A stretch of 64,000 nt of DNA from an uncultured Clostridia bacterium (lineage in GTDB: Bacteria; Bacillota; Clostridia; Oscillospirales; Ruminococcaceae): contig CALXBC010000001.1 of the NCBI GenBank assembly GCA_944386455.1, positions 62,001 through 126,000 of the forward strand. The letters run 5' to 3'. The notes under the pieces are model-generated. The model worked only from the letters and a program-made list of their open reading frames with translations. It made no database searches and was not told the origin of the DNA. Shown here in pieces: positions 58,191 to 64,000 of the stretch (position 1 is the stretch's first letter; the number at the start of each line of letters is the position of its first letter). The position numbers and the translations under genes were made by a program.

Positions 58191-59351
58191 TTATAAGGTG
58201 TGAAGCGCATCAATCGGTTGCAGGCGGGATGCCTTTGCCGCCGGATAGCCGCCAAACAGTACACCGATTACCGCACAGAAAGCAATAGCGGCGATACCGA
58301 CTCCCCAATTCATCCCTACCGATGTAGCAGAAATAAGGCTGTAAATTTCTATTGTACCAAATGACAGGAGCAACCCGATGATCCCCCCGAGCACAGAGAG
58401 AATACAGGCTTCACAGAGAAACTGAAGCATAATGTGCTTTCTCTTGGCACCGACCGCCTTGCGGATACCGATCTCACGGGTGCGTTCCGTCACGGATACC
58501 AGCATGATATTCATAATACCGATGCCTCCGACAAGAAGGGAAATGGCAGCGATCCCTGCGAGAAGCAGGGACATGGTATTGGTAACATCGTCCATTGTAT
58601 CAAGCACATCCGACTGATTGCTGACATCATAGGAGTCTTCGTCGCGCATGGCCTGCAAAAGGAACATCTCTACACTGCTGATTGCCGCGTTGACTGTGCT
58701 TTCGCTTGTCGCTTTGATATAAAAGCTGTTTACACTTGTCTGCCCGGTCATACGGGAAGCGGTTGAATAGGGGATGAGTATTCTGTTATCATCCGAACCT
58801 GCAAGGCTGGAGCCCTGTTCTTCCAGCACTCCCACTACCTTGTAAATACTGTCGCCGATGATGATGGTTCCGTTTACGGCGTCCCAAGTATCAAACAGGT
58901 CGGTTGCAACTTCCGTGCCGATCACACAGATATTTGTGTTCCATTCAATATCCGATTCCACGATTTTTCGGCCGCGCTGAATATCGATGTCCTGCACGTC
59001 AAAATAGGACGGTGTAATTCCAACAACCGAGTAGTTGCCGGTATTGCTGTTCTTTTTCACGGTTTGGTTTGTGGAAATAACAGGGGCTGCACCGCTGATG
59101 GTAGGATAGGAAGCAAGGCTTTCCACATCGTCAGCTGAAACGGAAACATCTTCACTGGATATGGTCGCCGTAATCTGCTGCGATCCCATGCTGGAAATAC
59201 TATCCGTGATGCCGCTAGTCGCACCCTGCGTGATAGAAACAAGGATAACGACCGCCATAACGCCGATAATGATACCGAGCATTGTCAGAAAAGAGCGCAT
59301 TTTATTGTTAAAAATCCCCTTTAAGGAGAGCTTTATGATTTTCCAAGTCAT
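58191..59351 (-). CDS. MacB-type ABC transporter permease
   Basis: 386 residues. An N-terminal membrane helix (about 18-40, FLTMLGIIIGVMAVVILVSI), a large extracytoplasmic MacB core domain, and three C-terminal helices with LLVGGIGIMNIMLVSVTERTREIGIRKAVGAKRKHI, here about residues 270-305, the FtsX/MacB coupling region. Such permeases export peptides or lipids with an ATPase and an adaptor. Its ATG overlaps the ATPase stop by 4 bases (ATGA). Last gene of the sigma/adaptor-ATPase-permease operon. Confidence 0.93.
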   Translation of the reverse strand: MTWKIIKLSLKGIFNNKMRSFLTMLGIIIGVMAVVILVSITQGATSGITDSISSMGSQQITATISSEDVSVSADDVESLASYPTISGAAPVISTNQTVKKNSNTGNYSVVGITPSYFDVQDIDIQRGRKIVESDIEWNTNICVIGTEVATDLFDTWDAVNGTIIIGDSIYKVVGVLEEQGSSLAGSDDNRILIPYSTASRMTGQTSVNSFYIKATSESTVNAAISSVEMFLLQAMRDEDSYDVSNQSDVLDTMDDVTNTMSLLLAGIAAISLLVGGIGIMNIMLVSVTERTREIGIRKAVGAKRKHIMLQFLCEACILSVLGGIIGLLLSFGTIEIYSLISATSVGMNWGVGIAAIAFCAVIGVLFGGYPAAKASRLQPIDALHTL

Positions 59352-60025
59352 ACGGCGGCCTCCTTATCACTCAACCGTCCGTCGCGAACGTAGACCTTTC
59401 GCTCAGCCTGATTTGCTACGTTGATGTCATGGGTAATCAGTATAATGGTATTCCCGGCCTTCCACAAATCCTGAATAATGCCCATGATCTCCTTGCCGGA
59501 CGCAGTATCCAGGTTGCCGGTCGGCTCGTCTGCCAGAATGATAGACGGTTCGCTTGCCAGAACACGGGCAATGGCAACCCGCTGCTGCTGGCCGCCGGAG
59601 AGCTGGGAGGGCTTATGCTGCATACGTTCTTCCAAGCCCACTTGTTTCAGTGTCTTAAGTACCCTTTCATGACGCTCTGCGGGCGAGATCTTCCGGTACA
59701 AAAGCGGCATTTCCACATTTTCATAAGCTGTCAAATCCGGAAGCAGATTGAACTGCTGAAAGATAAAGCCGATTTTTATGCCGCGAATTTCACTCAGCTG
59801 ATCTTCCGTGCAGTTGTCTACATATTCTCCGTCAAGGATATAATCTCCGCTGTCGGGGATGTCCAGGCAGCCAATAATATTCATCAGTGTCGATTTTCCG
59901 CTGCCGGAGGGGCCAAGAATCGATACAAATTCATGAGGCTTCACATGAAGGCTGACATCCTGCAAAACAGGCACGTCAATTTCACCGAGGGTATAGGACT
60001 TGTAGATGTGCTTGAGTCTGATCAT
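59348..60025 (-). CDS. MacB/LolD-type ABC transporter ATP-binding protein
   Basis: 225 residues. Walker [10 protein letters not shown] (about 39-47), Q-loop [18 protein letters not shown], signature [15 protein letters not shown], Walker [13 protein letters not shown] and the H-loop ITHD. It powers the adjacent permease. It starts 11 bases after the adaptor gene and overlaps the permease start, so all three are co-translated. Confidence 0.95.
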
Positions 60026-60036
60026 GGCAGTCCCTC

Positions 60037-61797
60037 CTAGTTGCCCATTCCAGGGAATCCTCCGCCGCCTTGCGGCATCTGGCTGGGATCAAAGTTTTCA
60101 AAATCAAAATCGCCAAAGTCCATTCCTCCGCCGGGGAATCCGCCTCTGCCTCCGAATCCGCCGCCTTCCCCTTCACTGTCAAAGCCCGTCAGGGTAGATG
60201 TGATTTGGGTAATGACAATCAAGTCGCCTTCAGCAAGCTCATCGCTTTCAATCATCATGTAGCTGCCGTCCGACATACCGGTTTCAACCGTAACCTTGGT
60301 CAGAGCATTGAGATCAATCTCCCCTTCTTCATAGGATGTGCCCAACTCGGCACCGGAAGGAGCAAGATAGACATAATTATCGTCGCCGGAGGTGCCGACT
60401 GCATCTACGGGGACAAGCAGACCGTCACCGCTGTCCTCGATCACAATTTCGGCAGATGCGCTCATACCGGGATATACACCCTCAGCGTAATCAACGGTTG
60501 CTGTAATTTGATACGCAGTTGTGCCGCCGCTTGCAGAACCGTTGTAGGAAACGGCTGTCACCGAGCCGGTGTAATCTCCGTCAACTGCATCGATGGTGAA
60601 AGAAACTTCCTGATCCAATGCAACAGAAGAGATGTTCAGTTCATCAACAGCAATTCCCATCGTAAAGCCGTCTTTCCCCATAACCATAGCAACAGAGCCG
60701 CCCGCAGCAACTTCGGTGCCGGATTTGACAGGAAATTCAATTAAAACGCCGTCACAGGGAGCCGTAATTTCTTCGTCTCCGTTGTCGCTCGTAACCACGG
60801 CAAGGACATCGCCTTCTGCGACCTCGTCTCCTACGGTAAAGTTGACAGACGCAATCTCTCCCGCATAAGCAGAAGTAAGAGTCTCCTGCGTAACAGGGGT
60901 CAGTGTTCCGCTGCCGCTGATCGTTGTTGATACATTGCCATAGGTGATTTCTTCCACCTGATAGGTGGTAATTCTTGTGGAGGATGCCGCACTGAAAATT
61001 TTTGGTAAAACAATTGCAGCGACGATAATAACCGCAAGAACCACAGCGATTATTACAATCGGTTTTGTATATTTGAAGCCCGCCTTTTTGGGGACGGTGT
61101 TTTGGCTTGGCTTGGCAGTTGATTTCATGCTCTTTTGTTCCTTTCTGGTGTTTGATAAAGCGGGGGGCTTTCCCTGCTGCCGCATGATAAGAATATAATC
61201 GTGTTCCAGGGCAGCAATCAGGGCCGGCGGAATTTTTATCATTTCAAACGGTTTTCCATCAGGGCTTTTAAACTGTGTTGATAAGTACACAGAATCCCGC
61301 ATCCCCATTTTTTTCATTTCAGATGTCCCCTGTGCTTTTAAGGATATTGCCGCCATCCTCTTTTTTGCCTGCTCAGGCGATATCCCCGTGAGTTTCGATA
61401 TAGCAGCGGCATTTAACCCTCCAATTGCTGTAAGCAGATAAAGACACCGTTCCTCATAGTCCAGCTGTTTGATACCATCAATCAAAGCAGCATATTTTTT
61501 TGAAATAGAAGGGATCGGAAGCGCTTCATAATCTTCTTCGCTATCAATTCCTTGAGATGCCAATTGAAAGATTTCAGCAGAGGCCAAAGCAATTAAGCTT
61601 TCTTTTGGCGCATCCGAAGATTTTATAATCTGTTCCACTATCTTTTTCCATCCGCTCAATAACAATGGGGCTGCTGTGCTCACGTCCTGTGTGATGTGAT
61701 AGCAGACAAACCACAATCGTCGAAGTTCAATTGGATAGAGCTCGCAGAACGTTTTGAAGTTGCCCTTCTTCAATCTGTAATACTGGGTGTAGTCCAT
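60037..61797 (-). CDS. Sigma-factor-like domain fused to a MacA/HlyD-type membrane adaptor
   Basis: 586 residues. Residues 1-160 read as an ECF-type sigma factor: a region-2-like segment (FCELYPIELRRLWFVCYHI to about residue 56) and a region-4-like helix-turn-helix (LDYEERCLYLLTAIGGLNAA to about 155). Residues 160-245 are a linker, 246-268 a membrane helix (YTKPIVIIAVVLAVIIVAAI), and 275-540 a barrel-sandwich adaptor domain (lipoyl-like TAPCDGVLIEFPVKSG), ending in a Gly/Asp/Phe-rich tail. Met224 (ATG at 61126-61128) has AGAAAGGA 10 bases upstream, so a 363-residue adaptor alone may also be made. The first ATG has GAGAG close upstream. The adaptor would link the MacB-type permease to the outside; a working sigma domain would be tethered to the membrane. 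Domain calls are by eye. Confidence 0.8.
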   Translation of the reverse strand: MDYTQYYRLKKGNFKTFCELYPIELRRLWFVCYHITQDVSTAAPLLLSGWKKIVEQIIKSSDAPKESLIALASAEIFQLASQGIDSEEDYEALPIPSISKKYAALIDGIKQLDYEERCLYLLTAIGGLNAAAISKLTGISPEQAKKRMAAISLKAQGTSEMKKMGMRDSVYLSTQFKSPDGKPFEMIKIPPALIAALEHDYILIMRQQGKPPALSNTRKEQKSMKSTAKPSQNTVPKKAGFKYTKPIVIIAVVLAVIIVAAIVLPKIFSAASSTRITTYQVEEITYGNVSTTISGSGTLTPVTQETLTSAYAGEIASVNFTVGDEVAEGDVLAVVTSDNGDEEITAPCDGVLIEFPVKSGTEVAAGGSVAMVMGKDGFTMGIAVDELNISSVALDQEVSFTIDAVDGDYTGSVTAVSYNGSASGGTTAYQITATVDYAEGVYPGMSASAEIVIEDSGDGLLVPVDAVGTSGDDNYVYLAPSGAELGTSYEEGEIDLNALTKVTVETGMSDGSYMMIESDELAEGDLIVITQITSTLTGFDSEGEGGGFGGRGGFPGGGMDFGDFDFENFDPSQMPQGGGGFPGMGN

Positions 61798-61862: not shown

Positions 61863-61920
61863 ATTATAATAGTCTACTGTGCTAAAGCGGCGCTAAAGAT
61901 ATATGTGAACACTGTGTGAA
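61863..61920 (-). promoter_or_regulatory. Response-regulator-type promoter of the sigma/adaptor-ABC operon
   Basis: Minus-strand TATAAT (61863-61868) lacks a consensus -35. Instead there are two direct-repeat pairs with 11-bp period: CTTTAGC (61881-61887 and 61892-61898) over the -35 position and TTCACA (61904-61909 and 61915-61920) upstream. Such tandem half-sites are typical of OmpR-family activators. Confidence 0.65.
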
Positions 61921-62268: not shown

Positions 62269-63474
62269 TTATTTGAGCGTAGCCTTAAATCCTATATATG
62301 TTGCATCTTTTTTATAGACAACGATATCGCCCCTATGTTTCCTTGCAATCCCCTTGGCAATCGAAAGCCCTATGCCAAAACCACCGTTAAAGGTTCTGGC
62401 TTTATCCGCCCGATAAAACCGGTCAAAGAATCGGTTCAGTTCCTCATTTTCCACATTCCGATACGAATTTTCAACGGTTATGATCGGATACCGCCCTTTT
62501 GTATAAATGCTCACTTGGATAACGCCGTTCAAATCGCAGTATTTGATGGCATTATCCAAAAGGATACACAACAGCCTGCGAATCAACCCCTCATCGCCGT
62601 GATACCGGATAGATGGCTGGATAGCAGTGATGAGATTTTTCTGCTTTTCAGCTGCAAGCCCGGCAAATTCCGAAACTGTATCTGACGCCACCTCGCTCAA
62701 ATTAAATTCTGCCATTGTAAGATTCGAGTTGTCCTCATCCATCCGCGATAGAGCTACAAGCTGATTGATGAGCGCCCCCATCCGCTCGCCTTCGCTGCGG
62801 ATGTCATCGAGCCATTCATTTTTGCCAAGTTCCGATTCTACGATGTCTACGTTAGAAAGAATTAACGTAAGCGGCGTTTTTAATTCGTGGTTTGCATCGG
62901 TTACAAACTGTTTTTGCTTCTCATAGCTTTCTGCGGCAGGCTTCACCGCTTTTTTTGAAATGAAGAGAATGAGCAGCAGAATCAAAATAAAGCTTCCGGC
63001 CAAAACGAAAAAAACCGTGTAAAGCAAGCGGTTGGTCATCGCTTTGTTCATTTCGCCATTCACAAAAACCACTAACCGGCCGTACTCGGTTTCCGATACT
63101 TTATATCGGTAAGCCGATATAAAGCCTCTTTCTCTTCCCATATTCAAGGTTCTTTTCGCATAGTCCCTCGCCTCATCTTCTGAAACGGAAGATATATGCT
63201 CAATATTTTCCTGAAGAATATTGCCGTTGTCATCTACCCACACAGTAAAAAAACGGGTGCCAAATCGCGTTTCAGGTGTTAAAAATTGATTCTGTGGAAA
63301 GCCTCCGGGAGGAGCTGGATTTTCCCTTCTGTCCAAATCCGGAAATACACCGTCATTCATAGCGATCACATCTGCCAGCATGTCCAAGGAATGATTCAGC
63401 TGTGATCTGCTGATAAAATAGATACCGCCGAAAATCAATGCAAATACGATACCAACTGAAACAGCGGTAATCAT
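62269..63474 (-). CDS. Sensor histidine kinase
   Basis: 401 residues from ATG 63474. Two membrane helices (about 1-22 and 150-173) flank a 125-residue sensor domain with a Pro-rich stretch (PAPPGGFPQNQ). HisKA has His196 in TDANHELKTPLTLILS; the ATPase domain has DNAIKYC, NGGFGIGLSIAKGIA and ends FKATLK. The natural start is probably the ATG at 63503, overlapping the regulator stop as ATGA and reading MIYKLRK, but the frame then breaks in a run of six A and ends at a TGA overlapping the ATG at 63474. One more A would restore a typical KLRKKFVMITAVSV start. Partner of the adjacent regulator. Confidence 0.9.
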   Translation of the reverse strand: MITAVSVGIVFALIFGGIYFISRSQLNHSLDMLADVIAMNDGVFPDLDRRENPAPPGGFPQNQFLTPETRFGTRFFTVWVDDNGNILQENIEHISSVSEDEARDYAKRTLNMGRERGFISAYRYKVSETEYGRLVVFVNGEMNKAMTNRLLYTVFFVLAGSFILILLLILFISKKAVKPAAESYEKQKQFVTDANHELKTPLTLILSNVDIVESELGKNEWLDDIRSEGERMGALINQLVALSRMDEDNSNLTMAEFNLSEVASDTVSEFAGLAAEKQKNLITAIQPSIRYHGDEGLIRRLLCILLDNAIKYCDLNGVIQVSIYTKGRYPIITVENSYRNVENEELNRFFDRFYRADKARTFNGGFGIGLSIAKGIARKHRGDIVVYKKDATYIGFKATLK

Positions 63475-63499: not shown

Positions 63500-64000
63500 T
63501 CATGCCCTATCCTCCAGCATATAACCAGCATTGCGGACAAAACGAATTTCAATCGGCGCTTTGATAGCCGCTATTTTTTTGCGAAGATTAGAGATATGCA
63601 CCCACACGACGCTGGTATCAACATTTGCATCCCAGCCCCATATATGTGTGATAAATTGCTCGGTAGAAATAATCGTATGCGGCTGCTGCATCATCATTTC
63701 CGTTATCTGAAACTCTTTCCCGCCGAGTGTTTGTGTGTTTCCGCCATAACACAGTTCATAGGTGGATCGATTGAGGATGACTTCCTTATAAGCCAGAAGG
63801 TCCGGGACATAGTTGTCCTTTCGGCGCAGCATCGCGCGGACACGGGCAAGCAATTCCGATGTGGAAAAAGGCTTTGGCAGATAGTCATCAGCCCCGGCAT
63901 CCAAACCTTCTACCCGCTGTGACACTTCAGTACGGGCAGTCAGAAACAGAGCAGGCGTTGTCACTTTTTCTTTTCGCAATCGTTTCAGCACTTCAATACC
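63500..64000 (-). CDS. OmpR/PhoB-family response regulator (partial, N-terminus beyond window)
   Basis: The last 166 codons of the gene. The receiver domain end shows FLTAR (Thr switch) and DYLPKPF (conserved Lys); the phospho-acceptor Asp lies beyond the edge. The winged-helix output domain includes YELCYGGNTQTLGGKEFQI and VWVHISNLRKKIAAIKAP, ending RNAGYMLEDRA. Its TGA overlaps the ATG of the kinase (63500-63503). It probably activates the sigma/adaptor-ABC operon through the direct repeats upstream of it. Confidence 0.92.
   Translation of the reverse strand, partial: GIEVLKRLRKEKVTTPALFLTARTEVSQRVEGLDAGADDYLPKPFSTSELLARVRAMLRRKDNYVPDLLAYKEVILNRSTYELCYGGNTQTLGGKEFQITEMMMQQPHTIISTEQFITHIWGWDANVDTSVVWVHISNLRKKIAAIKAPIEIRFVRNAGYMLEDRA

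Follow-up and report, generated by a model that had tools for sequence, protein, structure and literature searches.

Analysis of a 64,000-nucleotide stretch of Clostridia DNA (here called the window) revealed a degenerate ECF sigma domain joined through a linker and a membrane helix to a MacA/HlyD-type adaptor in a single frame on the minus strand (positions 60037 to 61797). Our combined results moderately favor the reading that this is an old, conserved fusion heading a two-component-regulated, MacAB-like export operon and having two translation starts, the long form of which would be a PhyR-like, membrane-tethered binding module. The fusion, the homology of its parts, the degeneracy of the sigma part, the conserved internal start, and the anatomy of operon and promoter were all computed directly. 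The parts are of known kinds and their combination is new; in the open-access papers searched, no published sigma-like domain joined to a transporter or adaptor was found.

The frame runs for 586 amino acids from an ATG start with zero internal stops, as an earlier reading made from the letters alone (the sequence-only reading) had described. All of its features lie on the minus strand. Sigma region 2-like helices (residues 1 to 85; 61543 to 61797) are followed by a sigma region 4-like helix-turn-helix (residues 100 to 158; 61324 to 61500) and by a helical segment (residues 159 to 207; 61177 to 61323; pLDDT about 90), conserved in the alignment with the pattern L..F..P....F..I.IP..L..AL.H, which falls outside the sigma match. 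The membrane helix (residues 247 to 267; 60997 to 61059) has basic residues on its N-terminal side, and the sigma part is therefore placed in the cytoplasm. The extracytoplasmic residues 275 to 535 (60193 to 60975) are an HlyD/MacA-type adaptor, as previously claimed: after the helix come Biotin_lipoyl (1.4e-8) and HlyD_3 (3.6e-7) domains, both above the Pfam cut-off, and a match to RND_mfp with an E value of 7e-25 that yet lies just under the curated cut-off. Like the MacA, HlyD, and YknX adaptors, the protein combines a membrane helix with biotin-lipoyl and HlyD domains and is encoded in an adaptor-ATPase-permease operon with a two-component system; unlike them, it carries about 220 extra N-terminal cytoplasmic residues.

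Residues 1 to 160 are a true ECF sigma homolog. The HMM check suggested by the sequence-only reading succeeded for the adaptor and only partly for the sigma part: a single-sequence search of Pfam gave a weak Sigma70_r4_2 match (E 0.0012), under the cut-off, and no region 2 match. A family profile made from an alignment of 13 relatives matches SigW collinearly in region 2 (6 to 51) and region 4 (105 to 156), with SigE also matching in the latter, and hhalign comparison of the family's N-terminal part with 21 ECF sigma factors from related genomes gave Prob 99.1 and an E value of 5.1e-18 over 178 columns. The AF2 model of residues 1 to 222 (pLDDT 90.2) contains the sigma2 and sigma4 folds. Its top PDB match is SigW-RsiW (Z 11.4, rmsd 3.9, 144 residues); the list is led by ECF sigmas in the closed form that they take when bound to an anti-sigma (SigW-RsiW, CnrH-CnrY, and RpoE-NepR), after which comes PhyR. 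The region 2 and region 4 patterns noted earlier were thus recovered in both profile and fold; the sequence profile evidence matters here because Foldseek E values for the model are only 4e-3. The Pfam family PhyR_sigma-like (PF22233) matched 5 of the 13 members weakly (best E 1.5e-4).

Sigma region 2.2 touches the beta-prime clamp of RNA polymerase. When the 13 family members were scored against 21 canonical ECFs, the core-binding aspartate, which is D or E in all 21 of the latter, was found to be proline in 12 members and leucine in the other; the region 2.2 glutamine, present in 19/21 canonical ECFs, occurs in 2/13 members; and the D..Q[ED] core-polymerase motif is replaced in every member. 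The recognition-helix arginine that contacts the -35 element, present in 14 canonical ECFs, is gone in 12/13 members (one has lysine), and the family does not show the basic -35 recognition helix V[KR]SR. Basic residues K145 to R147 are kept in this helix in the window and one close relative (L007), and the window's sigma part may accordingly retain some DNA binding. The N-terminal domain is under new constraints rather than in mere decay, since W29 and W50 are invariant throughout the family alignment, and its dN/dS of about 0.08 to 0.43 indicates purifying selection (0.23 between the window and L007 and 0.21 between L008 and L014, with the adaptor tighter, at 0.08 to 0.10). Because the polymerase and -35 contacts are degenerate and the operon promoter is of a housekeeping/response-regulator type, the sigma part probably serves, tethered to the transporter, as a PhyR-like binding module that does not itself drive transcription; that the N-terminal part is a non-transcribing binding module of some kind we hold with good confidence. 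The sequence-only reading had offered instead a membrane-tethered transcription factor. On such a view, the protein would be an active ECF sigma factor, freed by proteolysis upon transporter engagement. Its sigma homology is genuine, fused and proteolysed ECFs exist (PMC8999054), canonical fusions of an ECF domain, membrane helix, and extracytoplasmic part were found in the same order, and K145 to R147 are retained in the window; the family-wide replacement of the core-polymerase and -35 residues, together with a sigma-A-like promoter bearing its own response-regulator-type repeat, nevertheless makes this quite unlikely.

The best-known sigma mimic is PhyR. In the alphaproteobacterial general stress response, PhyR uses a degenerate ECF sigma fold as a binding mimic or decoy (PMC8103513). 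The fusion resembles it in having an ECF sigma fold whose contacts to polymerase and promoter are degenerate, and differs in having no receiver domain (no Response_reg match), in its C-terminal membrane adaptor, and in that no NepR-like partner was identified. The order of sigma domain, membrane helix, and extracytoplasmic part is shared with ECF48, ECF52, ECF53, and IutY/ECF243, for which proteolytic release has been proposed (ECF52) or shown (IutY) (PMC8999054). Those proteins, however, are regarded as working sigma factors carrying anti-sigma parts, whereas the sigma part in the window is degenerate and its C-terminal part is a transporter adaptor.

Twelve further genomes, mainly from one Clostridia family of gut bacteria, carry the fusion as an open frame; 10 of these are clearly distinct, and N-part identities are 27 to 71%. 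One genome-collection scan yielded nine more full-length fusions (L007 and G011 are one and the same contig), and three others, G668, G631, and G519, came from a search of 397 genomes from the window's family, which also turned up two broken copies. No further fusions outside the family were found among 391 genomes drawn class-wide, a draw that held few of the family, and no plasmid-borne copies were found. The deepest branches of the adaptor tree bear the fusion. Some adaptors in the same family are without the N-terminal extension; those of L011 and L012 (Mediterraneibacter MAGs), L019 (Mordavella), and L013 fall within the fused clade, near the window, their own grouping being weakly supported, and derived loss is the best interpretation of their state. 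L013 retains the fusion's 5' end, its ribosome site CGGAAAGGCCGTGAGA, and its 3' end, with about 260 nt between them missing, and is a decayed copy; upstream of L011 and L012, DNA alignment to N-part sequence did not rise clearly above shuffles. These patterns point to a fusion that was ancestral in the family, with loss or breakage of the sigma part on several later occasions. Losses or breaks in at least three places indicate that the N-terminal part is dispensable for transport.

Merging of two genes by stop-codon loss or assembly error, the other explanation offered by the sequence-only reading, could appeal to two copies that are not intact, G493 with a frameshift and a TGA between the parts, ahead of the adaptor, and G028 with a frameshift. 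Every other frame is open, deepest branches included, the N-terminal part is under purifying selection, and in L018, which has no internal ATG, the adaptor would be obtainable only from the fusion, barring a GTG start. A sequencing error or recent stop loss is ruled out by the distribution of open frames and the adaptor tree, on which G493 and G028 are derived, and gene merging in general is scarcely credible.

L011 and L012 hold the whole two-component/exporter cassette, with an adaptor lacking the sigma part, in MAGs labelled as Lachnospiraceae, which suggests that the cassette may have moved between families. Between the window and L007 (61040 to 61797), the N-part dS is 0.70, about twice that of all flanking genes (0.29 to 0.43). 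This rise, absent between L008 and L014, may reflect recombination or relaxed constraint.

An ATG with a good Shine-Dalgarno site at codon 224 had been noted earlier, and an internal start there is well supported by its conservation among relatives, whether or not they have the sigma part. The ATG (61126 to 61128, minus strand), which would begin a short adaptor form, is preceded by AGAAAGGA (61139 to 61146, minus strand) at a distance of 10 nt. The window contains 9 copies of the combination AGAAAGGA-N10-ATG, where 0.58 would be expected; the remaining 8 lie at the 5' ends of listed open reading frames or no more than about 20 codons away from them. The combination is base-identical in 8 of the 12 open relatives (L007, L008, L009, L010, L014, L015, L016, and L059), is kept in the broken copies G028 and G493 and in the adaptor-alone copies L011, L012, and L013, and is represented by close variants in L057 and L017 and a weak one in L060. 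The identity of AGA-AAG-GAA across lineages goes beyond amino-acid conservation, since AGA makes up 14 to 58% of Arg codons in the genes compared. Most relatives have a GGAGG-type site of their own at the upstream start; that of the window is weaker. With a ribosome site at the upstream start and a conserved one at the internal ATG, both starts are probably used, and the long and short products proposed by the sequence-only reading are likely, although not universal, given L018. Internal in-frame initiation yields an N-terminally shortened product in the case of Cas11b (PMC11899642); the comparable start predicted here is deduced from conservation alone.

The fused gene heads an operon, as claimed before, with a MacB/LolD-like ABC ATPase (59348 to 60025) and a MacB-like permease (58191 to 59351) downstream. 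Upstream, also on the minus strand, lie genes for a sensor histidine kinase (62269 to 63474; HisKA and HATPase_c) and an OmpR-type response regulator (63500 to 64000, cut by the window end; Response_reg and Trans_reg_C). ATPase and permease share the operon at all loci compared, and two-component genes adjoin most loci, in the same or the other orientation. A scan of the upstream region found the direct repeat TTTAGCGCCGCTTTAG (61882 to 61897, minus strand), a putative response-regulator-type operator and the sole exact copy in the window's genome, followed by the operon promoter's -10 box, TATAAT (61863 to 61868, minus strand). A repeat of the TTTAG-N6-TTTAG type is present in 15/17 upstream regions, relaxed in L019 to TTAAG-N6-TTTAAC, usually just ahead of a TATAAT- or TATGAT-like box and with or without a sigma part; a lone match to the pattern scanned for (TT[TA]AG-N5-7-TT[TA]A[GC] in 420 nt) could be chance, but its position and the -10 box recur. 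Repeat, -10 box, and adjacent two-component genes together suggest that a response regulator, by inferred binding, and the housekeeping sigma factor run the operon.

We propose that one mRNA made from this promoter would carry two in-frame starts, giving a long protein in which the cytoplasmic, PhyR-like sigma domain leads through one membrane helix into the adaptor, and a short protein that is the plain adaptor. From the features above we infer the making of both products, the binding function, the direction of signaling, and the partner. The sigma-like domain, no longer initiating transcription, would act as a protein-binding module that links exporter assembly or state to a partner in the cytoplasm. 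The most plausible partner would be an anti-sigma-type or polymerase-related protein, or failing that the exporter's own ATPase. An anti-sigma-type partner in particular is a tentative suggestion. More speculative still, the long isoform might sequester or release such a protein depending on how the exporter is assembled or loaded with substrate, with the short isoform setting the number of signaling-free exporters; one gene would then supply a component of the pump together with a reporter of its status. In the survey, which covered the zf-HC2 class, such anti-sigma proteins occurred in 7/9 genomes with an intact fusion and 7/16 without. The window genome's single zf-HC2 protein was rejected as the cognate partner, having recognizable relatives in just 2/24 other genomes, and zf-HC2 proteins do not regularly accompany the fusion.

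The sigma-like part might also work inside the exporter alone and have no link to transcription: as a regulator or scaffold on the cytoplasmic side, it would contact the MacB-like ATPase or determine adaptor stoichiometry. The degenerate sigma residues, the operon shared with ATPase and permease, the lack of a consistent anti-sigma partner, and adaptors without the sigma part in some lineages all fit this possibility, which we consider somewhat doubtful: contact with the ATPase is a proposal, and the closed ECF fold, kept as in anti-sigma-bound states, would have no obvious reason. For the tethered binding module that we prefer, the arrangement suggests an unrecognized link between transporter and sigma-type signaling and, if so, a new way of wiring transport to gene control; ECF folds would be reusable as tethered binding modules in Clostridia, and annotation from one start alone would miss a product.

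Other sigma-domain fusions were also seen. In other genomes from the same taxonomic order, eight loci (L021, L022, L024, L026, L030, L034, L035, and L041) encode a canonical ECF sigma domain whose frame continues through a likely membrane helix into parts that look extracytoplasmic, for example leucine-rich or Big-like repeats. In L082 (G000:C2), L042, and L027, one of which sits in the window's own genome, the ECF sigma domain bears a long C-terminal extension (about 350 aa) with no obvious membrane helix. In L032 (G159:C5, minus strand), a degenerate sigma-like domain shares a single frame with a membrane helix and a secreted-type cyclophilin; a family search of 12 genomes found this one copy and no further sigma-cyclophilin fusions like it. 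Its similarity to the N-terminal part of the adaptor family (hhalign Prob 92.6, E 4.6e-7) marks it as a parallel case to the adaptor fusion.
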